In this document: positions 3,826 through 58,702 of the stretch, in pieces | Layout: each line of letters begins with the position of its first letter | How positions within the stretch are numbered: position 1 is the stretch's first letter | IMG/VR virus record: IMGVR_UViG_3300047548_001261 | Location: 1-64,000 of that record | From: a virus | Direction: 5' to 3' (one strand) | DNA length: 64,000 nt | The notes under the pieces: model-generated | Seen by the model: only the letters and a program-made list of their open reading frames with translations | The model's database searches: none | Told to the model about the DNA's origin: nothing | Position numbers and translations under genes: made by a program

Positions 3826-4278
3826 TTACCCCCTTTCCTCCGACAACTCGTCAAACCTCTGGAAAAACCTTACCTGAGCAGGCTTATCCAAAGTTTCAAC
3901 TGCCTGAATTACCGCTGCCCGAAGGTGTTCGACCTCCCGGATATGGTCCAACTTCTCCCTGTTTCTTAAGAACAACTGAATCAAGGAATTAACCGAGGCG
4001 GAAAAGGACGCTAAAGCCCGTGTCTCAATGCCGGCCAACAGACCCTCATCGTCATCAAGAAGGCGGTCGCGTATTTTCAACACGAGCTCATACTGCTTCT
4101 GGACCTGATCCACGGATATGTTGTTAGAGGACGGGTCGTACCCAGATAACCTTAAAAGGGTAGCCTTCTGCTTGCCAGTTAATAAGCTCATGTGCTCTTC
4201 CAAGTCCACAAGAATTAAATCAAGTTCTGCTACTGCCTGATGGTAACTGGCTGCGCTATCTGTTGTTGGTTTGTTCAT
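3826..4278 (-). CDS. terS: Putative terminase small subunit
   Basis: This 150-residue, mostly helical protein is the first gene of the minus-strand packaging block, two small genes upstream of the large terminase. The length, acidic character and position match phage small terminase subunits, which bind the packaging site as a ring. Residues 10-50 (AVAELDLILVDLEEHMSLLTGKQKATLLRLSG) could hold a helix-turn-helix-like segment, followed by long amphipathic helices suited to oligomerisation. No diagnostic motif is visible, so the call rests on context. Confidence 0.5.
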   Translation of the reverse strand: MNKPTTDSAASYHQAVAELDLILVDLEEHMSLLTGKQKATLLRLSGYDPSSNNISVDQVQKQYELVLKIRDRLLDDDEGLLAGIETRALASFSASVNSLIQLFLRNREKLDHIREVEHLRAAVIQAVETLDKPAQVRFFQRFDELSEERG

Positions 4279-4320
4279 AAGTGTGTGTAATAATGAATAA
4301 TATTTAACTCGGACACTGCC
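4279..4320. promoter_or_regulatory. Divergent gap between packaging and head operons
   Basis: This 42-bp AT-rich gap separates the minus-strand start at 4278 from the plus-strand start at 4321. It contains AATAATATTTAA, and TATTAT-like hexamers on the minus strand, but no complete promoter pair. The promoters probably extend into the flanking genes. Confidence 0.3.
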
Positions 4321-5814
4321 ATGGCTGCTACCCCTCCTCCAATCAAACTTCCCACAAGGGTTGTTGCTACAAAAGTGCAGGTCTCGGATGTCGGGTACAG
4401 GAAGGATAAAGATACTGTCATTCCTGACCAGGAGCAGAAGTTCTTTAATACTGGGGTCAAGGACCTTCGCCAGTTAGATCACACCAGGGCGATCCGAATA
4501 CTGACGCGAGTCAACGGGACATTCAGCGCGGCACTTAATAGCTACTTGCAGCTGGCTATGTCTTCGGGATACAGAATCACAGGGTACTCTGCGGGCAGCC
4601 ACCAATTTGACCCTGGGGCGACATTAACCGCGATGACAATTGCGGCGTCGATGGATACATTGTACGACTACACCGAAGGGTTCTCAAGCAAACAATCTTT
4701 ATCTGGCACCCTGGAAACACTTTTAAAAGAGGTCTTACAAACCGGGGCATGTATGACGGAGCTTGTTTTGAACAAGTTTAAGCTGCCCGAGAACATAGTG
4801 TGTATACCGACGAACTCTATTGAATGGGTGTCCAAGCCGGACGGCGGGCGCTACCCACGACAGATTCCAACTGGAACCGGTGGCGACCCGATCAACTTAA
4901 ATTTGGCCACGGTGGATTACGCTGCCACGGCACAGCAAAGTAACAGCATATTTCCTCGAAGCCCGTTTGAGTCTGCGTTGAACACCGTCTACATGTTCAC
5001 CGAGTTGCTTGAGGATGTTTTCAAAGTTATCAGGAGATCGGGCCATTCCAGATTGGTAGCCAAGCTTCTACAGGAGGCTGTGCAGCAGATGGCTGACCCG
5101 GAAACACAGAACGATCCAGAGAAGATGGCACAGTTTTTTGAAACTGTCCGTAAACAGGTGCAGGATACCCTTAGCCAATTGGGTCCGGATGACGCCCTAG
5201 TCACTTACGATACCGTGGAAATCGACTCTATTTCTGCAAAAGGAGAGAAAGCGGACTATACTGCTATTCTGGAAACGATGGCAGGCATGTTGGCGTCATC
5301 TTTGAAGAGTATGCCGTCAGTGCTGGGGATGCGCGGTGCTGGCTCGCAATCTTTGTCGAACACTGAGAGTTTAATTTTTGTTAAAATGGCCGAGGGGGTT
5401 CGGGCGCCGGTTGAGACCGTTATGTCACGTGCGTTGACGTTGGCGACGCGGTTGGCAGGTGGGATGGATGCTTATGTTGAATTTAAATTCAAGCCAATTG
5501 AATTACGGACAGAGTCGGAATTGAGTGCACATAGGGCGGTACTGTTCCAAGATGTGATGAGGAAGCTGTCTATGGGTTACTATACGTCGCAAGAGGCAGC
5601 CCATGCTCTCGATATGTTCCCTATGTCTCCAGGAGCCCCTGACCTCTCAGGAAAACTCTTCATGGGAGAACTAACCGGGAGCGCGGGCGACCCGGGTATT
5701 CAGCCTAAAGACATGGCTACGCAAAATGATGGCGCCCAACAGAAATCTGGTAACGCTGGCACTAAAACTAGCGGAATTCCGCCGGCTAACGGGGGAGGCA
5801 ACCCAAAAGGGTAA
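4321..5814 (+). CDS. Portal protein
   Basis: This 497-residue protein should form the dodecameric portal ring at the capsid vertex, through which DNA enters and leaves and on which the terminase docks. It has the usual layout: an N-terminal wing, a long central helical region, and a conserved stem/crown segment with SMPSVLGMRGAG followed by LSNTESLIFVKMAEGVR, typical of portal C-terminal halves. The last 50 residues are Gly/Ser/Pro-rich and disordered-looking. It is the first plus-strand head gene, followed at once by an HNH endonuclease and the capsid protease. A portal at this place, next to a protease-scaffold gene, is the standard order. Confidence 0.88.
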   Translation: MAATPPPIKLPTRVVATKVQVSDVGYRKDKDTVIPDQEQKFFNTGVKDLRQLDHTRAIRILTRVNGTFSAALNSYLQLAMSSGYRITGYSAGSHQFDPGATLTAMTIAASMDTLYDYTEGFSSKQSLSGTLETLLKEVLQTGACMTELVLNKFKLPENIVCIPTNSIEWVSKPDGGRYPRQIPTGTGGDPINLNLATVDYAATAQQSNSIFPRSPFESALNTVYMFTELLEDVFKVIRRSGHSRLVAKLLQEAVQQMADPETQNDPEKMAQFFETVRKQVQDTLSQLGPDDALVTYDTVEIDSISAKGEKADYTAILETMAGMLASSLKSMPSVLGMRGAGSQSLSNTESLIFVKMAEGVRAPVETVMSRALTLATRLAGGMDAYVEFKFKPIELRTESELSAHRAVLFQDVMRKLSMGYYTSQEAAHALDMFPMSPGAPDLSGKLFMGELTGSAGDPGIQPKDMATQNDGAQQKSGNAGTKTSGIPPANGGGNPKG

Positions 5815-5816
5815 AT

Positions 5817-6542
5817 ATGATGATTAACACAGAAATGTTAGACGATGTACTGTTCGACAGCTTGAGAAAAGACCCGTCGAAAGAAAGCGGTTATGCAGGG
5901 TGTCATAAGACTGCGAACGGCAGTTGGAGGGCTGTACTTGGGGATAGAAAGAAGACGTTTAAATCTTTGTCGGATGCCGTGGCACACCTTAAATGGTTGG
6001 TTTTAAATAACCTACCGACTAGGCCGCCTAAAGAATTGACTCAGGACTACCTGAAAGAAATTCTGTCATATAACCCGGAGACGGGCAACTTTACTTGGAT
6101 ACAACCAAGAAGAGGGCATTTGGGACACCAAGAAGCTGGCAACCTTACAAAAACAGGATACATAAGAATCACTGTTGGTCGGCAAGAATTCTTCGCACAT
6201 AGGCTAGCTGTGTTGTACATGACTGGCGCATGGCCTACCCAGCATGTAGATCATGTAAACCAAGTGCGTAGAGATAACCGGTGGGTAAATATACGACAAG
6301 CCACAAGAAGCCAAAACGGGGTTAACGCCGGAAAGATGCGAAATAACACTTCTGGATTCAAGGGTGTACGGGCGTCTAAGAACAATAAGACAAACCCCTG
6401 GCAGGCACAAGCAGCACTTAACGGCAAGCAAGTACACATCGGATCCTACCCCACCCCCGAACTTGCCTACGAAGCTTATAAAACTTTTTGCCAAGAGCAC
6501 CATGGCGAATTCCTCCACCACACATTGAAGGCACAACCATGA
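5817..6542 (+). CDS. HNH homing endonuclease with AP2-like DNA-binding domain
   Basis: This 241-residue, free-standing homing endonuclease sits between the portal and protease genes. Residues about 80-115 hold the conserved ETGNFTW start of the HNH_3 family, and 128-170 hold the nuclease (AHRLAVLYMTG, VDHVNQVRRDNR, with Asp145/His146 and following Asn). Residues 180-225 form an AP2-like domain (GFKGVR...WQAQ...HIGSY...AYEAY). A second AP2-like stretch may lie at 25-60. It starts two bases after the portal stop with AAAGGG upstream, and its stop overlaps the protease start. The enzyme presumably spreads its own gene; it is not needed for head assembly. Confidence 0.9.
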   Translation: MMINTEMLDDVLFDSLRKDPSKESGYAGCHKTANGSWRAVLGDRKKTFKSLSDAVAHLKWLVLNNLPTRPPKELTQDYLKEILSYNPETGNFTWIQPRRGHLGHQEAGNLTKTGYIRITVGRQEFFAHRLAVLYMTGAWPTQHVDHVNQVRRDNRWVNIRQATRSQNGVNAGKMRNNTSGFKGVRASKNNKTNPWQAQAALNGKQVHIGSYPTPELAYEAYKTFCQEHHGEFLHHTLKAQP

Positions 6543-7987
6543 CTGACCTATGGCTCGGCAGCATAGAATCGTTTGAGCGGGTACAGGAGATCGAAAGAAT
6601 GATCGCCAAAGCCCCCAAGTCCTTACGAAAGCAAGCCGAGGCTTACAACCTCAAGCGCCTCTCGATGTGGGGCGAACCCGGTGACGAGGGTTCCGTCGAA
6701 GATGAAGTGGAGCACTGGATGCTGGAAATGAACAACACCCTTGCGGTTATCTCTGTTGAAGGCCCTATGGTTGATGGCTCTGCAGGTTGGTTTGGCAGAT
6801 ACTTCGGGTATACCGGTTACGACGATATTAAAGAGGCGGCTATTTGCGGAATCAATGCTGGAGCCACGGATTTCCTATTTAGTTGGAAAACTCCTGGGGG
6901 CAGTGCTGCCGGCATTGAAGATACGTCCTATTTCCTGGAGCAGTTAGCCAAGGAGTTTCCCACAACCTCACACACTTCCAGCCAATGTTGCTCGGCAGGG
7001 TTCTGGCTGGCGACAGCTCTTGATGACTTTTACGCCACGCCTATGGCAGAGGTCGGCTCCATTGGTGTTGTCGCGGTTCATACAGAAGTGACAAAGATGC
7101 TGGAAATGGAAGGTATTTCCAAAACTGTGTTCCGCTCGGCGAAATACAAGCACATCGGAGGCCCTTACGAAGCACTAACGGATTTCAGCACAGGGGTTAT
7201 CCAAAACGACCTCGACAAAGCTCACCAATTTTTCGTCGACGTAGTGGTTAAGCACTGTAACTTGGACCCCGAATTCGTGGCCAACAGCATTGCCACAGGC
7301 CAGACATGGTACGGCGAAGAGGCTTTATCACTAGGCATTATTTCCGGGATCAAAACGTTTGACCAACTTTTAATTGCATTTTCAAAGAAAAGCGTCGAGA
7401 ATACAAACTATTACGGTATGAACTATTCTAAAGAGGGCGGTATGAAAAAAAGATTAATCACACCGGGGGTTGCTGGCGCTATCGCTTCCGGCATACCTCC
7501 CGAAAAAGCGTTGGAAGGTGCGCCTTTGGTTGACGAACCCGAAAAGGAAGTCGATGAACCCGAAGCAAAACCAGAAGCCAAGGCTGAGGACATACCCGGC
7601 ACATTGGAAGTTAAATCCGACGAGAATCTTCAAAACCAGCTGATCGACGCAAAAGTCGAGTTGCGCACGCTCTCGGCCAAACTGATCTCCCTGGAAGCAT
7701 CTCAAGACGGGCTTAAAAAGATTGCCGCACTGTCTATCCAACGAGCTTTCGCTGGTATCGGAAGTCCGGTCCCGGAAATGGAAAGCTTACTAGCTATGGA
7801 CCCTAGTTTGTTGATTCAACAACATGCTATGGCGGACGCACAATTGCAGAAAAAATACGGCAACGGAGGCAGAGTTTCTGTCGAAGTCGAAGAGGGTGGA
7901 GAAGAGGATGTGGCTGCAGAGGCAGCCACAAACTTCATGGAAGAAACCCTCCAGAATCTGGCAACATTCCGCCCACGCAACCCTTAA
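6539..7987 (+). CDS. Capsid maturation protease (S49 family) with scaffold tail
   Basis: This 482-residue protein combines an SppA/lambda gpC-like serine protease with a C-terminal scaffold. The start ATG 6539 overlaps the HNH stop; an upstream in-frame ATG at 6488 is inside the HNH gene and less likely. Motifs: PGGSAAG at 119-125, nucleophile Ser152 in CCSAGFWLA, VGSIGVV at 172-178, and the catalytic lysine in SAKYKHIGGP (about 202-204). After about residue 300 the protein becomes acidic and helical, with a Glu/Pro/Lys-rich linker, as in scaffold domains. The protease cleaves the scaffold during prohead maturation. Confidence 0.92.
   Translation: MTDLWLGSIESFERVQEIERMIAKAPKSLRKQAEAYNLKRLSMWGEPGDEGSVEDEVEHWMLEMNNTLAVISVEGPMVDGSAGWFGRYFGYTGYDDIKEAAICGINAGATDFLFSWKTPGGSAAGIEDTSYFLEQLAKEFPTTSHTSSQCCSAGFWLATALDDFYATPMAEVGSIGVVAVHTEVTKMLEMEGISKTVFRSAKYKHIGGPYEALTDFSTGVIQNDLDKAHQFFVDVVVKHCNLDPEFVANSIATGQTWYGEEALSLGIISGIKTFDQLLIAFSKKSVENTNYYGMNYSKEGGMKKRLITPGVAGAIASGIPPEKALEGAPLVDEPEKEVDEPEAKPEAKAEDIPGTLEVKSDENLQNQLIDAKVELRTLSAKLISLEASQDGLKKIAALSIQRAFAGIGSPVPEMESLLAMDPSLLIQQHAMADAQLQKKYGNGGRVSVEVEEGGEEDVAAEAATNFMEETLQNLATFRPRNP
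7442..7987 (+). CDS. Nested in-frame scaffold protein
   Basis: An internal ATG at 7442 (codon 302 of the protease gene) is preceded by AAAGAGGGCGGT, a strong ribosome site with good spacing. Translation would give a separate 181-residue product starting MKKRLITPG. This is the arrangement of lambda Nu3 inside gpC, where the shorter product is the main scaffold. The product is acidic and helical with heptad-like spacing near VELRTLSAKLISLEAS. Protein-level evidence is lacking; the start signal is seen directly. Confidence 0.7.
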   Translation: MKKRLITPGVAGAIASGIPPEKALEGAPLVDEPEKEVDEPEAKPEAKAEDIPGTLEVKSDENLQNQLIDAKVELRTLSAKLISLEASQDGLKKIAALSIQRAFAGIGSPVPEMESLLAMDPSLLIQQHAMADAQLQKKYGNGGRVSVEVEEGGEEDVAAEAATNFMEETLQNLATFRPRNP

Positions 7988-8458: not shown

Positions 8459-9637
8459 ATGGCAAACAAATCAAGTTTTAAAGGTGCGGATGGCAAGAAC
8501 CACGAGGTGGAGATTGACGTAACCGATTATTTAGCTGCCGCAGATCAGAAGATCAACCTGACACAGTACTATTCTCGCAAATTCCAAACAGCACCGGAGC
8601 AGCCCACTGCTTTCGAGCAAATGATTAGCCGCGCAGGTATCCGTTTACGTCCCGACGATGCACGCGGCATCCCTGCCTCCAGCCTTCACGAAATTTTCAA
8701 CGGTACTTTGGACAAGTCCATGGGTACGATCCTTCGTGGCGATGGTGCGGACCGTCAAACAACAACTGGCCGAATCTTGTTCCCGGAAATCATGCTTAAC
8801 TTGATTGCCGCGAACCTGATAGATAACAAAGACGACTATTTGTTGCCTTGGGAAGGTGCAATCGCATTGAAAACCACTGTAACCGGTGCCCGAGTTGACC
8901 AACCACGTATTGATGTGACCGCGCCCATGGCAAGTGCGTCAATGCCGGTCGCGCAATTGGCGGAACCTGCGACCATGGTGTCAATCACCTTGAGTGGAAA
9001 GTCTTACATCATCCCCTCTAAAGGGATTGGTCTGGCGGTTTCTGACCAAGCGTTGCAAGCTACTACCATTGATTTAGTCGGCATTACCATGGCTGCGCAA
9101 GCCAGAGGCGAACGTATTCGTCGACTGGAAGAGGACATGTCCAACATCATTAATGGTGATACGGATTTCGGCATTGCAGCAACACCTTTTGTGAATGCTT
9201 CAACCTTTGACTCCGCGATCCCTGGTACAGCCAAGATCACGAGACGTGGGTTCATTAAGTGGTTACGTCAGTATTACCAAAAAATGACGATTACTCACAT
9301 CATGGGCGACCTTGATGCTGCCTTGGATTTGGACCAGTATGCCCGCAACCCTAATGGTGTAACAGGCGACACTAAGTTCGAGCTCGACTGGTCAGTGATT
9401 AACGCTAACCTACCCAAACCACAGTTCCTGTCACTGCCGACATCCATCATTGGTGCAAACCGTTTGGTTGGTTTCGACAAAGCCAATGCGTTACACCAAA
9501 TCACCAACGTCTCTGCCAGTTACTCAGCGGTAGAGAATTTCGTGATGAGACGAGCCACTGAGTTCCGAGTGGATAGTGGTGTCCTGTTAGTGAAATTGTA
9601 TGACGAAGCGTTCCAAGGTTTGACGTTAGGCTCGTAA
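8459..9637 (+). CDS. Major capsid protein
   Basis: This 392-residue protein is the shell subunit, probably HK97-fold. It follows the decoration gene by four bases and is followed by a strong terminator, matching a highly expressed capsid gene. The N-terminal 60 residues are polar and helical, compatible with a delta-like scaffold arm. Later stretches such as SKGIGLAVSDQALQATTIDLVG and the C-terminal NFVMRRATEFRVDSGVLLVKLYDEAF resemble the P- and A-domain strands of phage capsid proteins. The gene order (portal, protease, decoration, capsid) makes the assignment firm. Confidence 0.88.
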   Translation: MANKSSFKGADGKNHEVEIDVTDYLAAADQKINLTQYYSRKFQTAPEQPTAFEQMISRAGIRLRPDDARGIPASSLHEIFNGTLDKSMGTILRGDGADRQTTTGRILFPEIMLNLIAANLIDNKDDYLLPWEGAIALKTTVTGARVDQPRIDVTAPMASASMPVAQLAEPATMVSITLSGKSYIIPSKGIGLAVSDQALQATTIDLVGITMAAQARGERIRRLEEDMSNIINGDTDFGIAATPFVNASTFDSAIPGTAKITRRGFIKWLRQYYQKMTITHIMGDLDAALDLDQYARNPNGVTGDTKFELDWSVINANLPKPQFLSLPTSIIGANRLVGFDKANALHQITNVSASYSAVENFVMRRATEFRVDSGVLLVKLYDEAFQGLTLGS

Positions 9638-9700: not shown

Positions 9701-9730
9701 TTGTTCGAGCTTGAGTTTGAGGGGTATAAT
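9701..9730 (+). promoter_or_regulatory. Sigma70-like promoter for the homing endonuclease gene
   Basis: A -35 element TTGTTC (9701-9706) and a perfect -10 element TATAAT (9725-9730) are 18 bases apart. They lie directly after the capsid terminator and about 37 bases before the ATG at 9767. Confidence 0.75.
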
Positions 9731-9766
9731 ACGGTTCCTCACACCCTCCTAACTCCGACGAATACC

Positions 9767-11470
9767 ATGAAACGTAAAACAGCCTTACAAACCCTAGCTG
9801 AGTTCAAAGCTATTCACGGCAACAAATACGACTACTCTCTTGTTGAGTACAAAGGTACAGACAAGAAAGTCACCATCATCTGTCCATCTCACGGCCAATT
9901 CCAGCAACGCCCAGGGAACCATATCCGAGGAGAAGGTTGTCCGAAGTGTAAAGTGAGCAAGGTTGCCGATAGCCACAGACACACGACGGACATTTTCATC
10001 GAGAAGTCAAAAGCTAAACACGGTGCAGATCGGTACTCTTACACCCAAACGGTTTACACAGCATCGAAAGCAAAGGTTAATCTCGGGTGTAATATCTGCG
10101 GGACGATCTTTTCTCAATTGGCGGGGGATCATTTAAAAGGTAGTGGGTGCCCTAAGTGTGCCACCGTATCCCGAGCCGCTAAGAATGCGCTTATTGATAA
10201 GGTTATGCCGATAAGGACAACGGAAGAGTCCTATGTTCAATCCCTAAACCTTCCCGACAACATCTCTTACGTACCAGGGAGTTTCAAGGGTGTATTCAAG
10301 CACGTAAAGTTCCTGTGCCAAAAGCACGGAGAGTTTACCAAGATAGGCAACTCTGCCAGGACGTCCCAATACTTGTGCCCTGACTGCGTTAGCGAACAAA
10401 GCTCTGCAAGGCAGTTCCACACCCTAGGCCAAGTCATAGATAAAGCTAACAAGGTGCATGGGCAATACACATATAGGAGAGGGCAGGAGTACAAAGGCAA
10501 CCGCACTCTGCTGGAGATCACATGTCCTACCCACGGAACGTTTACGCAAACAGCTATGGGGCATCTAGCTGGCGCGGGGTGTAAGGCTTGTGGGTATGAG
10601 AAGGTTGCAAGCTTATTACCAACCTATGTCTCTAAAGGGGAACAAGAAATCGCAGATCACTTCAAGGGTCTAGCAAAGGTTATTCAATCGGATAGGGGTA
10701 TTCTCTGGGGGCAAGAGCTCGATATTTACTTTCCGGAGCAGAATGTCGCCGTGGAATACAACGGGTTGTACTTTCACGGCGAAAACTTTAAAAAACCACG
10801 AGACCACTTGGATAAACTGAAAAAGTGCCAAGAAGCTGGGGTCGACCTAATCCAAATCTACGAGGATGAGTGGCAGAATAAACCCGATATTGTGAAATCC
10901 ATTATCTCCTCTCGGCTAGGCATTTACACACGGCGCGTTCCAGGAAGAAAGACCAAACTTGTTGCTGTCAATTCCACTGACGCGAAAAAATTTTATAATG
11001 AGAATCACATCCAAGGGTTCGTAGGTTGCCAACAACACTTCGGGCTGGTCATCGACGGTGAGATAGTTTCTATGGCGTCATTCTCCAAACCTAGGGAAAT
11101 CTTCAAGACAGTTCCCGCTGATCTGGAACTGGTGAGGTTCTGTCACAAACTAAACACAACCGTTATCGGCGGCTTTAAGAAACTTTTGAAAGCCGTACAA
11201 GGAAAAACCCTCATGACGTATTGCGACAAAAGGCTGTTCAACGGGGAGGGCTATTTATCCGCAGGGTTTTTGCTTTCCCATGAAAGCTCCCCTGGGTTCG
11301 ACTACGTTAAAGGTAAAGGCAGATACTCCAGGTTTCAATTCCAAAAGCACAAATTAGCTAAAACCCTAAAGAACTATGACCCTGACCTAACCGCTGAAGC
11401 AAACATGAAAGCGCACGGCTATAGCCGTATTTATGGTTGCGGTAACATGGTTCTCACACTCAAACCCTAA
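9767..11470 (+). CDS. Homing endonuclease: DUF723-like zinc repeats plus Vsr/EDxHD-type nuclease
   Basis: This 567-residue protein has three parts. Residues 1 to about 290 hold several repeats of the pattern H-x-YDYS...ICPSHG-x-F-x(8)H-x-x-G-x-GCPKC, zinc-binding DNA-recognition units (DUF723-like). Residues about 295-385 hold a Vsr-like nuclease: QELDIYFPEQNVAVEYNGLYFH with later DLIQIYEDEW, as in EDxHD homing enzymes. The C-terminal 180 residues (NENHIQGF, ELVRFCHKLNT, YCDKRLFNGEGY) are a domain often seen at the end of such phage enzymes. ATG 9767 is chosen over an upstream TTG because it follows the promoter. It has its own promoter between two terminator/promoter blocks, as expected for a selfish insert. 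Confidence 0.87.
   Translation: MKRKTALQTLAEFKAIHGNKYDYSLVEYKGTDKKVTIICPSHGQFQQRPGNHIRGEGCPKCKVSKVADSHRHTTDIFIEKSKAKHGADRYSYTQTVYTASKAKVNLGCNICGTIFSQLAGDHLKGSGCPKCATVSRAAKNALIDKVMPIRTTEESYVQSLNLPDNISYVPGSFKGVFKHVKFLCQKHGEFTKIGNSARTSQYLCPDCVSEQSSARQFHTLGQVIDKANKVHGQYTYRRGQEYKGNRTLLEITCPTHGTFTQTAMGHLAGAGCKACGYEKVASLLPTYVSKGEQEIADHFKGLAKVIQSDRGILWGQELDIYFPEQNVAVEYNGLYFHGENFKKPRDHLDKLKKCQEAGVDLIQIYEDEWQNKPDIVKSIISSRLGIYTRRVPGRKTKLVAVNSTDAKKFYNENHIQGFVGCQQHFGLVIDGEIVSMASFSKPREIFKTVPADLELVRFCHKLNTTVIGGFKKLLKAVQGKTLMTYCDKRLFNGEGYLSAGFLLSHESSPGFDYVKGKGRYSRFQFQKHKLAKTLKNYDPDLTAEANMKAHGYSRIYGCGNMVLTLKP

Positions 11471-14904: not shown

Positions 14905-14908
<4 letters not shown>
14588..14908 (+). CDS. 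Small beta-sandwich protein of the fibre module
   Basis: This 106-residue protein begins [17 protein letters not shown] and reads as alternating beta strands, ending [15 protein letters not shown]. Small proteins of this type commonly precede fibre genes in siphoviruses, and the start resembles the N-terminal fold of baseplate upper proteins. Its stop overlaps the start of the collagen-like gene, so the two are coupled. It may be a fibre-base subunit or chaperone; the sequence does not decide. Confidence 0.6.
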
Positions 14909-17822
<2,914 letters not shown>

Positions 17823-45042: not shown

Positions 45043-45266
45043 GGGGTGCTAGCCTCGTGTTGGTTGGTGTCTAAGCTGTTGTAAAGCCGTCGATCAACCG
45101 AGTAAGAAGCTGGCTTTAACCTACCCTCTTTTTCCTTGGAGTCTCGGACAGTCTCGGCACCGGCGTTACGGGCCTCGGTGTAACAGGCTTGCTCTATGGA
45201 CAGGCCTTTGAGTTTTGTACCATAACGGTTGTAGAAAGTTACTTGGTAGTTGCCCGTGGTAATCAT
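45039..45266 (-). CDS. Small hypothetical protein
   Basis: This 75-residue protein (NYQVTFYNRYGTKLKGLSIEQACYTEARNAGA...) looks like a strand-helix fold with a charged C-terminus. It shares 4-base overlaps with both neighbours, so it is expressed with the dUTPase fusion. Function unknown. Confidence 0.6.
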   Translation of the reverse strand: MITTGNYQVTFYNRYGTKLKGLSIEQACYTEARNAGAETVRDSKEKEGRLKPASYSVDRRLYNSLDTNQHEASTP

Positions 45267-46288
45267 TGTACAAAGTCCCCTGTAGAACCGAACCCATTAT
45301 CACCCCTTTCGGAGTCCTCCAGACTCGCCACCCGTTCATAAAAATCTAAATTAACAGGGATAGTTAGAAGTTGTGCTATTTTTTGACCGATATTTACCTC
45401 GTAAGCCTTATCTCCTAAGTTATATAGATGAACAAGAACCTCTCCCGTATATCCGCTATCAATACACCCGGCTCCGACCTCTATTTTATGCTTTACAGAT
45501 AACCCGCTTCTTGACCAAATTAGGCCGACGAAGCCATCTGGTACATTGATTTTTATCCCTGTCGAGATTATTTGACTACCTCCAGCCAGTATTGTTGTCT
45601 TGACGCAGGATAATATATCGAGACCCGCATCTAATCTGACATTTTTTGTTAACTGGGAACCAGTAGATTGCCCAGAATCCGCTAGCTTACCTTTTGCTGA
45701 CCTAGCAGCATTATGTAAAGCTGTGTGTTCTCCCCTCGTCATAACTTCCAAATTACTTAAGGAATTGTTTAACCTGTTTTCATCGACATGGTGGACGTCA
45801 AACTCTGGATTTAAATACCAACCCCCTTCTATTTCTTGCAGAAACCTGTATTGGTGTGTAGCCCTTAAGTAATGCTCCATAATCAACCTGTGTAGGCGTA
45901 TATCATCGTCGCAAGTCCTATAGGGGTGTGTGTAGTTTTTCACTAAAACGTACCCGTTAGGCCCTACACGAATACCAGACACCCAAGAAGAGTTTTCAGG
46001 GCCTTTTACTCCGAACTGGTGGTTAAGCTCTCCCACCATTCTTTTGCTACGAGCGACCTTACCACAATCATACGAGCAAGTTATGTCACCCGGATTTACA
46101 CGCTTAGCTAAGTGGCTTGGCTTTAAGTGGAAAGGTTTTGCACAAACCGAGCACTGTACGTTGTTAGTCGCCCTGAATCTCACGCCCATACACTCCTTAG
46201 AGCAGCAATGGTGTTTATTATTCTCCATACGCTGTCTGGACAACTCAAAAGGTTTTCCGCAGACTTCGCAGTCAACTATTACTTGCAT
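45263..46288 (-). CDS. HNH endonuclease-dUTPase fusion
   Basis: This 341-residue protein joins two enzymes in one frame. Residues 1-85 have two zinc-finger-like units (CEVCGKPF...CCSKEC, CSVCAKPF...CSYDC). Residues about 125-192 are an HNH nuclease (RLHRLIMEHYL, DVHHVDENRLNNSLSNLEV, GEHTALHN). Residues about 215-337 are a trimeric-type dUTPase with all five motifs: RLDAGLDIL, SRSGLS, GAGCIDSGYTGE (Asp277), GQKIAQ and RGDNGFGSTG. GGAGAGGAAAG precedes the ATG. The dUTPase keeps its catalytic residues; the HNH also looks intact. It probably arose when a homing gene inserted at the start of dut. Confidence 0.88.
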   Translation of the reverse strand: MQVIVDCEVCGKPFELSRQRMENNKHHCCSKECMGVRFRATNNVQCSVCAKPFHLKPSHLAKRVNPGDITCSYDCGKVARSKRMVGELNHQFGVKGPENSSWVSGIRVGPNGYVLVKNYTHPYRTCDDDIRLHRLIMEHYLRATHQYRFLQEIEGGWYLNPEFDVHHVDENRLNNSLSNLEVMTRGEHTALHNAARSAKGKLADSGQSTGSQLTKNVRLDAGLDILSCVKTTILAGGSQIISTGIKINVPDGFVGLIWSRSGLSVKHKIEVGAGCIDSGYTGEVLVHLYNLGDKAYEVNIGQKIAQLLTIPVNLDFYERVASLEDSERGDNGFGSTGDFVQ

Positions 46289-46790
46289 CTTTCCTCTCCA
46301 AAATTGTGTGATATTTTCTTTCAGCTTCTGCCCGAGCAGCTATTGCCGAGGCAGCATCCAAATATGACCCCAGGTAGGTCGGTTCTCCGCACGAAACTAT
46401 TGTGGCGATATACCTGCCCCTAACCTTTTTTACCCCTTTAGGTAACCCTCCCTTGCCTCCTTTCCTGTTCTGCATAACTACAGAAGAAGTTGTGTCGACC
46501 AGATTGTCAGGCAGGTTATTGTCCATATCTTTGTCTCTGTGTGTCACAAGATTTTTCGGCCACTCTCCAGTGTCCCAAAGCACTGCCAATCGGTGTGCGG
46601 CGAAAGGTACGCATCTGATACCGATAATCCGATACCCCGTCTTAGCACATTTAAACCCTGCCGGTAGCCCCGTTTTGGCTCTTCCCTTGGGGTTTATCCA
46701 GTAAAACTTCCCGTCTTCCCTAAGTTCCAGCAACTCTTTAAGCGTGCGTTGAGTGACTAAACTCTGCTTCTTACACGAGGATGTAGACAT
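46272..46790 (-). CDS. HNH homing endonuclease with AP2-like domain
   Basis: This 172-residue protein has LLELREDGKFYW, then AHRLAVLWDTGEWP and VTHRDKDMDNNLPDNL. The usual DH of the first catalytic block reads THR here, so activity may be altered. Residues about 120-160 are AP2-like (GLPKGVKKVRGRYIATI...YLGSYLDAASA). It overlaps the helicase end by 20 bases and the dUTPase fusion start by 17. As a free-standing homing gene it is probably selfish. Confidence 0.8.
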   Translation of the reverse strand: MSTSSCKKQSLVTQRTLKELLELREDGKFYWINPKGRAKTGLPAGFKCAKTGYRIIGIRCVPFAAHRLAVLWDTGEWPKNLVTHRDKDMDNNLPDNLVDTTSSVVMQNRKGGKGGLPKGVKKVRGRYIATIVSCGEPTYLGSYLDAASAIAARAEAERKYHTILERKDASNS

Positions 46791-55778: not shown

Positions 55779-57186
55779 TGGAAAATATCTCCGTAGTTAA
55801 GTTATCCACAAAGGACGAGTTGTCCTTCATTATTTGTTTCAATTCTTTTGCTCTTGCCATAGCTTTCCCAAATAGGCGGGTACTTGATGTAAACGCAAAG
55901 CGGAATACCCATGCCACTACAGGGTGCTTCTGCCCTTGCCTTTGTACACGCCCTAAAGCTTGCTCAAAATCCCCTGGTGAGCCTGTGGGCTCGTAGAAAA
56001 TCATGTGGTGACAATTTTCCTGTAGATTAAAGCCCGCCCCGCCCGACCTGTAGTTCATGATCGCCATTGTGCAAGTATCGTCGTTCAAGAACTTGTCTAC
56101 GTTAGCCGGCACGTTGCTGCCTCCGTAAACTAAGGCAGGATTTCTGCCTTTGAATATTTGTGCAAGACTCTCTACGGTCTTCCGGTAATGGCAGAAAATA
56201 ACCACCTTACCTTCAATAGACCCGACGATCTGCTTCAGGTTATCTAAGGGTTCATTATCGATTTTTTCAAGAGTAAATGCCCCGATGTTGGTCACCAATT
56301 GCAGAGCCATCTGTCGCAAGGATTGCTGATTCCTTGCGACAATCAATTCCTCCCCGTATTCCAACATCCTTTCTAACAAAAGTTGCTGATACAGGTTCTG
56401 GTGGGCGTCATCCAGCAAGACATGGTGATCGATTATCGTGGGCGCTTCCAAGGATAATACATCTTCTTGCCGTCGGCGTACCGCTCTGTAATTCAGATTC
56501 TCACTTAGCAAATCAAGTTGTTTATACCCGGCAATCTGATCCTTCATGAACGGAATGTAGTCAACATGAATCCGGTCGAATTGCGCAAGGTCAACGTAGG
56601 CTTCTCGCTTTTTCAATCGGATGTGCCCATAAGCCGACCTCAGCTCTGTGGGGCAAGGCGTGGCTGTCATAGATAGTAAGTCCATGTCCTGCATGTAGAC
56701 CGCCCTATACATCTCTTGGAAAGCTTGGGAGCTAGCATTTGCCATCATGTGGGACTCGTCGGCGACGATCGATTTGTAGCGCCCGTGTTTCCTTATTTCC
56801 GCGCCGTGCTTCACAAATAGTTGGTAGGACATCATTAACACGTCTGCCCAAACTCCCCCTAACATCAACGCCTTACGCTTGGCAGGGTCTTTATCAAGTC
56901 TTGCACAAGTAAACTCGTGCCCAACAATTTGCTGCTCAAAATTCATCATATACTGAGTCAGCAAAGGAGGGGGCATGACGACTATAACCTTCTTGCCGGA
57001 GTAGAGTTTATCCATGATCCAAAGATAAGAGATTAGGGATTTACCTGTTCCAACATCCGAGAAATTATTCGACCGGCGCCAGTCCAGGTGCTTCTGTAAA
57101 TCCTCCCGTTGATAGGGTTTGGGTGTTAGGGTAACTTCCACCTCGTCGGGAATTTTAGGGTTAGATAGGATTTGATTAAGTCTCAT
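55744..57186 (-). CDS. SNF2-family helicase
   Basis: This 480-residue helicase has motif I SDVGTGKSL near 43-51, Ia VVMPPPLL, II VADESHMM near 143, III SMTATP, IV KVVIFCHYRKTV, V NYRSGGAGFNLQ and VI QALGRVQRQGQ. It is a short SNF2-type ATPase of the sort common in phage replication modules, probably remodelling DNA-protein complexes or forks. Its ATG overlaps the methyltransferase stop (ATGA). Confidence 0.92.
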   Translation of the reverse strand: MRLNQILSNPKIPDEVEVTLTPKPYQREDLQKHLDWRRSNNFSDVGTGKSLISYLWIMDKLYSGKKVIVVMPPPLLTQYMMNFEQQIVGHEFTCARLDKDPAKRKALMLGGVWADVLMMSYQLFVKHGAEIRKHGRYKSIVADESHMMANASSQAFQEMYRAVYMQDMDLLSMTATPCPTELRSAYGHIRLKKREAYVDLAQFDRIHVDYIPFMKDQIAGYKQLDLLSENLNYRAVRRRQEDVLSLEAPTIIDHHVLLDDAHQNLYQQLLLERMLEYGEELIVARNQQSLRQMALQLVTNIGAFTLEKIDNEPLDNLKQIVGSIEGKVVIFCHYRKTVESLAQIFKGRNPALVYGGSNVPANVDKFLNDDTCTMAIMNYRSGGAGFNLQENCHHMIFYEPTGSPGDFEQALGRVQRQGQKHPVVAWVFRFAFTSSTRLFGKAMARAKELKQIMKDNSSFVDNLTTEIFSNVPEIVSTQDD

Positions 57187-58379
57187 ACATTCATAAATGC
57201 TTTAATAAATTGCGCGGCCACTTGTGGGACTATGGCGTTGCCGTAACCCTTCAATCTCATAACCCGCGCTTCTTGCGTGTTTTCACAGTCAATTTCAAGT
57301 GCTTCTGTGTTTCTATCGTTGCTTGGCACCACTCGACGGGGAACCCCATCAACCAGCGGCTTAACGCCGGGTTTAATTGGCCTCCATTTGTCATCCCTGC
57401 AATAGAGCCATTCTGGATTAGTCCATTCTGTATTAATCCATTCGGATACAAGTGCGGGTGTACCTGCTCCCTTAAGTTCGCTGGAGATGTTCGCCCTGGC
57501 CTCTCTGCTGTAAATTGCCGACGCATCGCTTCCTGACCCCTCGCTGGGAGGTCGTCCATTGTGTTCGGTGTTGCCCATCCTGCTAATGTCGCCTGTTGGC
57601 TCAATGGAATCCCGGTATCCTGTGACCTCGGTAAACTCCCGCCCCTGCTGTGATCCTGCGCCATTGGGGTACACCGCCCCACTACATGAGCCACCCCCTC
57701 TAAATTGATCCCGTGATTCCCTGCCATTACTTGTGGCGAGTTGTGATTCGCCCCTCCCGTACCCGTTTTCGGTGTTGGATACCCTGCCAACTGTGCCGCT
57801 ACATCCAACGTATCCCTTGACAGCTTCCCGTTCCGTATCCTGCCACCCTGATAGCCGCCCCTGTGATCCCTTGTTGTTGCTGTCGGCCACCCAGTAAAGC
57901 CTTTGTCTGATATGGGGTGCGCCCGCGCCTGCTGCTGTAAGTACAATCGACCCGACGGCGTAGTTTTCCCGCTCCATTTCAAAGCATAAATCATCGAGCC
58001 AGCCGTGTTTGATGGCGGCAGGAACTTGTTCTCCAAAAATTGTTCTGAAATTGCATTGCTTAACAAGTTCGATAAAGTGCGGCAAGAGGTGTCGTTCATC
58101 GTCTTTTCCTTTCCCTGCTCCGGCAACACTAAAAGGTTGGCAGGGGAGGCTTGCGGTGCAGACTGGCTTATCGTCTGCCCAGCCCGCAAGTCTAAGGGCA
58201 TAAGACCATCCGCCAATGCCGGCAAAGAAGTGGTGCTGGGTGTACCTTCTGATGTCACTTGCCTCAACTTCTGTAATACTTCGCTCATCTACATCCCCGT
58301 CGGCAATCAAGCCGTTTTTAATTAATTGCCTAAGCCACGCTGCGGCTTTAGGGTCGTATTCATTGTAATAAGCGCTCAT
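57183..58379 (-). CDS. C5 cytosine DNA methyltransferase (overprinted gene)
   Basis: This 398-residue enzyme has motif I HHFFAGIGGWSYALRL (near 50), IV SLPCQPFSVAG (Cys about 80), VI-like GEQVPAAIKHG, VIII IRQRLYWVAD and X GYGNAIVPQVAAQFI. Between VIII and IX lies about 150 residues of poorly conserved, Gly/Ser/Asn-rich sequence with recurring segments (VADSNN, VSNTENG, LATSNG, MGNTEHNG). A second long gene (57257-58288) is encoded in another frame over this region. ATG 58379 overlaps the upstream stop. It is probably a self-protecting methylase; no endonuclease partner is seen. Confidence 0.88.
   Translation of the reverse strand: MSAYYNEYDPKAAAWLRQLIKNGLIADGDVDERSITEVEASDIRRYTQHHFFAGIGGWSYALRLAGWADDKPVCTASLPCQPFSVAGAGKGKDDERHLLPHFIELVKQCNFRTIFGEQVPAAIKHGWLDDLCFEMERENYAVGSIVLTAAGAGAPHIRQRLYWVADSNNKGSQGRLSGWQDTEREAVKGYVGCSGTVGRVSNTENGYGRGESQLATSNGRESRDQFRGGGSCSGAVYPNGAGSQQGREFTEVTGYRDSIEPTGDISRMGNTEHNGRPPSEGSGSDASAIYSREARANISSELKGAGTPALVSEWINTEWTNPEWLYCRDDKWRPIKPGVKPLVDGVPRRVVPSNDRNTEALEIDCENTQEARVMRLKGYGNAIVPQVAAQFIKAFMNV
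57257..58288 (-). CDS. Overlapping-frame protein with GWPT/GWAT repeats
   Basis: This 343-residue frame lies wholly inside the methyltransferase gene. Its ATG (58288) has GGGGATGTAG upstream. It reads as a coherent protein: an N-terminal Pro/Leu-rich region, GSMIYALKWSGKTTPSGRLYLQQQARA, then spaced repeats containing GWPTATTRD, GYPTPKTGTG and GWATPNTMD, ending LSRWLMGFPVEWCQ. Proteins of this pattern are found overlapping phage cytosine methylases elsewhere, which argues that both frames are translated. The function is unknown. Confidence 0.75.
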   Translation of the reverse strand: MSEVLQKLRQVTSEGTPSTTSLPALADGLMPLDLRAGQTISQSAPQASPANLLVLPEQGKEKTMNDTSCRTLSNLLSNAISEQFLENKFLPPSNTAGSMIYALKWSGKTTPSGRLYLQQQARAHPISDKGFTGWPTATTRDHRGGYQGGRIRNGKLSRDTLDVAAQLAGYPTPKTGTGGANHNSPQVMAGNHGINLEGVAHVVGRCTPMAQDHSRGGSLPRSQDTGIPLSQQATLAGWATPNTMDDLPARGQEAMRRQFTAERPGRTSPANLREQVHPHLYPNGLIQNGLIQNGSIAGMTNGGQLNPALSRWLMGFPVEWCQATIETQKHLKLTVKTRKKRGL

Positions 58380-58702
58380 CAATGCAAAACCCCTTTCTCC
58401 GGCCCTTCCATAACTGCCAACCTCGTCTGCACATACTTTAAAAATGCCTTCAATATAGGCTCACTCGGCTGGTCGTCAGCTTGTAAGGTTACCGCAGAAC
58501 ATTTCGGGCACGGGCAAGTTGGTACTAATCTGAACAATTGTGGCTTACCTTCTTCTAGCATACTGAAGGAAAACGCCGGCTGACCGCCAGCTAAACTATC
58601 GGCGATCTGTAACAGAAGGGTGATGTCGGCGACGTCTACCGGCTCTTGAAGCACGCTGGAGAAATGACCTGCTAAAAATTGTTTTTCTATTTTTGGGTTC
58701 AT
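58379..58702 (-). CDS. Hypothetical protein with CPCPKC motif
   Basis: This 107-residue protein has a helical N-terminus (VADITLLLQIADSLAGGQ) and TCPCPKCSAVTL, a possible metal site, near the middle. It shares ATGA with the methyltransferase start and overlaps its upstream neighbour by 4 bases, within one operon. Family not recognised. Confidence 0.65.
   Translation of the reverse strand: MNPKIEKQFLAGHFSSVLQEPVDVADITLLLQIADSLAGGQPAFSFSMLEEGKPQLFRLVPTCPCPKCSAVTLQADDQPSEPILKAFLKYVQTRLAVMEGPEKGVLH

Follow-up and report, generated by a model that had tools for sequence, protein, structure and literature searches.

A probable homing endonuclease of a dut-associated HNH lineage fused in frame to the only dUTPase of a phage

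We found that a single open reading frame (ORF) in a 64,000-nucleotide stretch of viral DNA (positions 1 to 64,000 of IMG/VR record IMGVR_UViG_3300047548_001261; hereafter, the window) encodes an HNH endonuclease followed in frame by a dUTPase, the enzyme that excludes uracil from DNA. HNH (His-Me finger) homing endonucleases are selfish DNA-cutting enzymes that invade genes, and one belonging to a dut-associated HNH lineage has probably been joined, with the frame kept, to the start of the only dUTPase gene (dut) of this phage. A sequence-only reading had placed both enzymes in one frame at 45263-46288 with their catalytic motifs kept, and this was borne out: there is one ORF of 341 residues, both Pfam domains score above their cut-offs, and neither the HNH core nor any of the five dUTPase motifs is disrupted. 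The features concerned are as follows.

45263..46288, minus strand: HNH–dUTPase fusion ORF, 341 aa, from ATG to TGA/TAA without an internal stop
45692..46288, minus strand: HNH half, residues 1-199, matched by Pfam HNH_3 and PHROGs HNH families; AF2 pLDDT mostly 81-98 up to residue 190
46190..46270, minus strand: first CxxC...CxxxC module, residues 7-33, recognized by sequence pattern
46064..46153, minus strand: second CxxC...CxxxC module, residues 46-75, present in nine of nine fusions, its Cys invariant in the family alignment
45713..45796, minus strand: HNH catalytic core VHHVDENRLNNSLSNLEVMTRGEHTALH, residues 165-192 (HH, N, N, H, H), intact in nine of nine fusions
45653..45691, minus strand: linker, residues 200-212; pLDDT < 50 at 200-209; no in-frame ATG/GTG/TTG in a start-codon scan
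45266..45652, minus strand: dUTPase half, residues 213-341; PF00692 E 9e-29; fold match Z 17-19
45611..45631, minus strand: dUTPase motif 1, DAGLDIL, residues 220-226
45503..45511, minus strand: dUTPase motif 2, RSG, residues 260-262
45440..45463, minus strand: dUTPase motif 3, IDSGYTGE, residues 276-283, uninterrupted
45371..45388, minus strand: dUTPase motif 4, GQKIAQ, residues 301-306
45278..45307, minus strand: dUTPase motif 5, RGDNGFGSTG, residues 328-337
46272..46790, minus strand: free-standing second ORF for an HNH endonuclease of phrog_99 type (172 aa); it overlaps the end of a helicase gene and the start of the fusion

Pfam HNH_3 matches the window fusion at residues 162-189 with 30.1 bits (cut-off 24.8), and H166, H167, N175, N179, H188, and H192 are invariant columns in an alignment of 18 relatives. 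Both cysteine modules are probably zinc-binding, judging from their sequence pattern; the first is missing from the L020, L142, L143, and L146 fusions described below. PF00692 covers residues 213-337 with 100.3 bits (cut-off 22), in agreement with PHROGs, and this is the sole PF00692 match of the 81,895-base phage record. The AF2 model of the monomer (mean pLDDT 88, pTM 0.47) contains two confident domains, the mutual placement of which is not reliable, with a disordered linker between them. In structural alignment, solved dUTPases match model residues 207/208-326 (Z 17-19), starting at about residue 9-14 of their own sequence, and by this model the dUTPase half lacks only a short N-terminal strand, the first ~10 residues. 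The dUTPase had been called complete, which holds for its fold and its five motifs and not for this strand.

Pfam and PHROGs detected no Hint splicing domain in the window fusion, and the HNH lies at the very N-terminus, so that there is no N-extein and the arrangement is not that of an intein. The second HNH ORF overlaps the fusion start by 17 bases and, with the helicase gene flush upstream, leaves no room there for a dut exon or intron. The window phage is rich in homing-type endonucleases, with further examples at 5817-6542 (+), an HNH between ORFs 4321-5814 and 6488-7987, and at 9701-11470 (+), a 589-aa phrog_559 endonuclease directly after ORF 8459-9637 (a probable capsid gene). Elsewhere in the window, a C5-cytosine methyltransferase ORF (phrog_363) at 57183-58382 (-) encloses an ORF in another frame of the same strand, 57257-58288 (-), which encodes 343 aa and has its own match to phrog_1008 (E 4e-26); dual coding over ~1 kb is probable. 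The ORF at 14905-15483 (+), 192 aa, consists mostly of collagen-like G-A-T repeats.

With only the window protein as the query, a scan recovered a single HNH-half relative and a single dUTPase-half relative. Profiles built from the HNH half, and from the window protein together with L101, then recruited the following orthologous fusions.

L141: 340 aa, 50% identity to the window fusion
L142 and L143: 306 aa, 55-56% identity
L101: 342 aa, 43% identity

Three more in-frame fusion groups were found (L020 with L146; L147; L149), so that searching for the domain pair, as had been suggested, gave the same join in eight further contigs from other, distant viruses, nine in total. The orthologous fusions place the join beyond chance; it is no artefact, and the sequencing error that the sequence-only reading had named as a possible refutation is excluded by these four contigs. 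The HNH core and the dUTPase motifs are kept in all nine fusions with minor deviations, which contradicts the other suspicion, that the HNH part is dead in all relatives. For example, motif 4 is without its Gly in the L020 fusion, and in the L101 fusion motif 1 reads AAQD at residues 224-229 instead of the usual AG.D, which is unusual near a dUTPase active site.

The window fusion, L141, L142, L143, and L101 are grouped on the HNH tree at 96/93, with the remaining fusions scattered, and the same five are grouped on the dUTPase tree at 98/98, with L003 and L106 as neighbors (91/89). Since both trees group the same five contigs, the HNH and dUTPase halves have travelled together. The AU test rejects (p 4e-57) a tree with all nine fusions in one clade, and the HNH tree needs at least four state changes. 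These phylogenies suggest that the HNH–dUTPase fusion arose separately about four times, an exact number being uncertain given the long branches and the modest support elsewhere in the tree. The dUTPases of L003 and L106 carry ~12 residues ahead of the motif-1 region (MKIVLEPWAIMPTRAHEFDAGLDL in L003) that are missing from the window clade, whose members have a common short dUTPase N-terminus (e.g., KLSKHNKLDAGLDI, SLTRNKRLDAGQDV, and QLTKNVRLDAGLDI). That these residues are kept in L003 and L106 and lost in the fusion suggests that the HNH replaced the first dozen codons and was not added to a whole gene. The dUTPase N-terminus is retained in the L020 and L146 fusions.

No HNH–dUTPase in-frame fusion was present among the top-ranked hits from 50,697 deposited phage records, and the long tblastn matches in deposited phages were crAss-like introns, a lone dut (MT836148), and Acinetobacter phage XC1. 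In XC1 (OQ547903; L218 594-1316 and 1317-1856), a different HNH-like ORF is followed by a dUTPase in the same frame with one stop codon between them, a possible precursor state of such fusions. Two structure-library matches with long alignments, A0A1W6JNG3 and A0A8S5S6I2 (“dUTP diphosphatase”, Myoviridae sp. ctqEN1), may be similar two-domain proteins. The identification of A0A1W6JNG3 as the dUTPase of Lactococcus phage AM4 was rejected; the AM4 protein has 248 aa and no HNH. A text search of non-subscription literature found no report of an HNH–dUTPase fusion.

The wider HNH family was evaluated at loci recruited with HNH-only profiles. Among close relatives (66 bits or more against the window HNH), 18 of 20 interrupt, are fused to, or adjoin (within 700 nt) a dUTPase, dUTPase_2, or MazG-type gene, as compared to 0 of 95 distant HNHs (below 60 bits; p 4e-19, ignoring kinship among family members). 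The two close relatives without such a partner are L098 and L108, the latter next to what is probably a capsid gene. A neighbor count over all scans gave 30/36 versus 1/132, with a p value that likewise ignores kinship; the HNH-only count is preferred because one all-scan ranking included the dUTPase half. Among annotated proteins, those nearest to the HNH half are the dut-intron HNHs of crAss-like phages and the HNHs of Vibrio phages 1.189.B and 1.239.O, which adjoin or are fused with a MazG-like pyrophosphohydrolase. The layouts found in the family are the following.

HNH between two dut parts at motif 3: L024, L041, L103, L104, L107, L145, L152, and crAss-like phages
HNH directly downstream of dut: L018, L102, L106, L166
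HNH upstream of dut: L022
HNH fused to dut: nine contigs
Full dut, then an HNH ORF ending in a second copy of the dUTPase tail: L019 (3391-4708), L150 (3429-4732)
HNH, then a dUTPase piece that lacks motif 1: L023
HNH beside a MazG-type gene: L017, L021, L026, L097
HNH beside a dUTPase_2 gene: L025, L156, L161 (PF08761 confirmed for L156)

The suggestion that a homing gene had inserted at the start of dut with the frame kept, tying itself to a needed gene, is well supported by this comparison: the same HNH family occurs in dut introns, beside dut, and fused to dut in four groups, and sister dUTPases keep the ~12 lost codons. Read by eye, ThyX or SSB-like genes are often in the HNH neighborhood. 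The prophage-like loci L025, L026, L156, L157, L158, and L161 have a recurring order of alpha-helical pyrophosphohydrolase (dUTPase_2 or MazG-type), HNH, and ThyX, and in L017, L020, L106, and L149 an SSB-like gene adjoins the HNH/dut or HNH/MazG-type pair, also by eye; the SSB-like neighbor may mark a conserved hot spot.

Signs of movement were found between the related contigs L142 and L143, which are identical along 564 bases (3892-4455) over the HNH half. Synonymous difference between them (pS) is lowest in the HNH half (0.011), intermediate in the dUTPase half (0.108), and highest in the ThyX gene downstream (0.324), the gradient expected after recent homing with co-conversion of part of dut. 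Ordinary phage mosaicism could also explain the identity tract, because the two contigs have another near-identical stretch, without an HNH, at about 724-1356 of L142. An HNH-free dut, i.e., an empty site, was not seen in a close relative of the window phage. Searching IMG/VR by helicase and DNA polymerase gave no relatives of the window phage. Only distant Vibrio phages (e.g., SHOU24 and K120) were identified, in which no dut is annotated between the DNA polymerase and tail genes, so that they offer no empty-site comparison.

Other explanations of the fused ORF were weighed. The nearest annotated relatives of its HNH half are intron-encoded HNHs inside dut, as would suit a dut with a group I intron whose HNH frame runs into the second exon, the situation in crAss-like phages. 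We consider this very improbable here, since no RF00028 match was found in the window at the gathering threshold, around the ORF at E up to 5, or, at E up to 0.1, in the loci of the other eight fusions, and the intron site at motif 3 is intact in the window fusion, with no space for exon 1 upstream. RF00028 passed the gathering score in the positive controls L024 and L107; Rfam missed several crAss-type introns, so that an absent match at the fusions is not proof. XC1, with two such ORFs separated by one stop codon, is a real case that would favor an error of sequencing or assembly, or an insertion in decay, in which two genes were joined through a lost stop with one half dead. Such an origin is scarcely credible for a junction that is open, with both catalytic sets kept, in nine contigs of four groups, and the fusion is moreover the sole dUTPase match in all nine records, although these may be incomplete. 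It is also quite unlikely that the fusion exists in sequence only, with the dUTPase freed by proteolysis or a non-canonical internal start and the two activities acting apart. The predicted disorder of the linker and the candidate in-frame starts near the junction in L101, L020, L147, and L149 would favor this, but the window, L141, L142, L143, and L146 have no ATG, GTG, or TTG close to the join, which makes a dUTPase made alone from an internal start unlikely in those five of the nine contigs. Such a start had been proposed as something to look for, and none is found at the junction in the window.

The remaining alternative, a combined role having also been raised by the sequence-only reading, is a functional partnership, in which the nuclease and the dUTP-removing enzyme would cooperate, e.g., by cutting the DNA of the host or a rival while control of dUTP keeps phage DNA uracil-free, and the fusion would have been selected for this. 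In a broader form, the HNH lineage would be the dedicated partner of dUTP-removing enzymes of any fold, both forming one functional unit, with fusion selected repeatedly since the activities must be together. The lineage does accompany three non-homologous enzymes that clear dUTP or related nucleotides, PF00692 dUTPase, PF08761 dUTPase_2 (L156), and MazG-type enzymes (L017, L021, L026, L097, and Vibrio phages 1.189.B and 1.239.O, the last with an in-frame HNH–MazG-like fusion); MazG-type and dUTPase_2 enzymes share no ancestry with PF00692 dUTPase. Parsimony on the HNH tree requires at least six dut/MazG-type partner changes, with dUTPase_2 neighbors counted together with MazG, and both active sites are intact in at least four fusion groups. 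A nuclease recognizing dut sequence is not expected beside MazG-type or dUTPase_2 genes, which counts against the homing reading. However, members of the same HNH family are also encoded within introns of dut or carry a duplicated dUTPase tail, both of which are usual for selfish elements. The order and side of the genes differ between loci, and no joint activity is known. Enzyme replacement at a syntenic spot (ThyX/SSB-like genes nearby) beside a resident HNH could give the same pattern. On balance, cooperation of the two halves seems unlikely, and a dedicated partnership across folds is likewise an improbable account. The partner switching may reflect enzyme replacement at a conserved spot, frequent change of the HNH site, or, with a rather small probability, joint usefulness of the two activities.

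In the preferred reading, that of a homing endonuclease welded to the front of dut, comparison suggests that an HNH gene became positioned at the 5' end of dut, where its own frame took the place of the first dozen or so dut codons. With a sole dut and no ATG, GTG, or TTG near the junction, dUTPase is by sequence now made solely as the C-terminal part of a protein with two domains. Its intact motifs and predicted fold suggest that the dUTPase half would form the usual trimer and hydrolyze dUTP, so each trimer would bear three HNH heads. The HNH half, judging from its family and from the L142/L143 identity island, would nick or cut dut alleles without the HNH, and repair from an HNH-bearing copy would spread the HNH together with adjoining dut sequence. 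A nuclease that provides a needed enzyme with its start codon would be hard to lose, a translational anchor in place of a self-splicing intron. Homing endonucleases usually stay harmless and hard to lose through self-splicing introns and inteins or by siting beside a gene. Use of the nuclease as the N-terminal domain of a nucleotide enzyme on which the phage relies would be a third, recurring solution. One HNH family showing adjacent, intron-borne, tail-carrying, and fused states opens the entry into a gene and the anchoring there to study. That the partner changes among dUTPase, dUTPase_2, and MazG-type enzymes was unexpected and raises the question of whether the partner is chosen by DNA site or by biochemistry.

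Several known systems resemble the window fusion in part. The dut-intron HNHs of crAss-like phages (Carjivirus communis KP06_gp34/gp35; cr1_1; cr50_1) have a homologous HNH half (32-35% identity), the same host gene, and a single dUTPase. They lie between two dut exons at motif 3, an annotated intron insertion, and end before the second exon, whereas the window fusion has its HNH at the N-terminus, an uninterrupted motif 3, and no detected intron. Phage homing endonucleases of the T4 type sit in or near critical genes (PMC2988022), and the free-standing T4 seg/mob enzymes (intronless, collaborative homing) resemble the window case in having a nuclease in or beside a critical nucleotide-metabolism gene (PMC2988022). 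They are separate proteins, whereas in the window the nuclease and the host-gene product are one polypeptide. In the ShiLan element, an HNH endonuclease lies within a phage DNA methylase gene without an intron or intein (PMC11855218); the host ORF is left open by the HNH and no splicing element was found, as in the window, but the ShiLan HNH is out of frame with its host gene while that of the window is in frame and supplies the N-terminus. Fungal mitochondrial mobile ORFs (mORFs) in atp6, atp9, cox2, and nad3 combine an endonuclease ORF with a replacement piece of the host gene, and an in-phase endonuclease hybrid is present in Glomus atp6 (PMC3630166). The phage loci L019 and L150 share this layout in their duplicated dUTPase tail. 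The mORFs replace the C-terminal end and carry LAGLIDADG or GIY-YIG enzymes, in contrast to the N-terminal HNH fusion of the window. The HNH–MazG-like fusion of Vibrio phage 1.239.O (MG592605) has the same HNH family, the HNH placed first, and a nucleotide pyrophosphohydrolase as the partner, which differs in being an all-alpha MazG-like domain (18.3 bits versus a Pfam cut-off of 22) with a fold unrelated to that of dUTPase.
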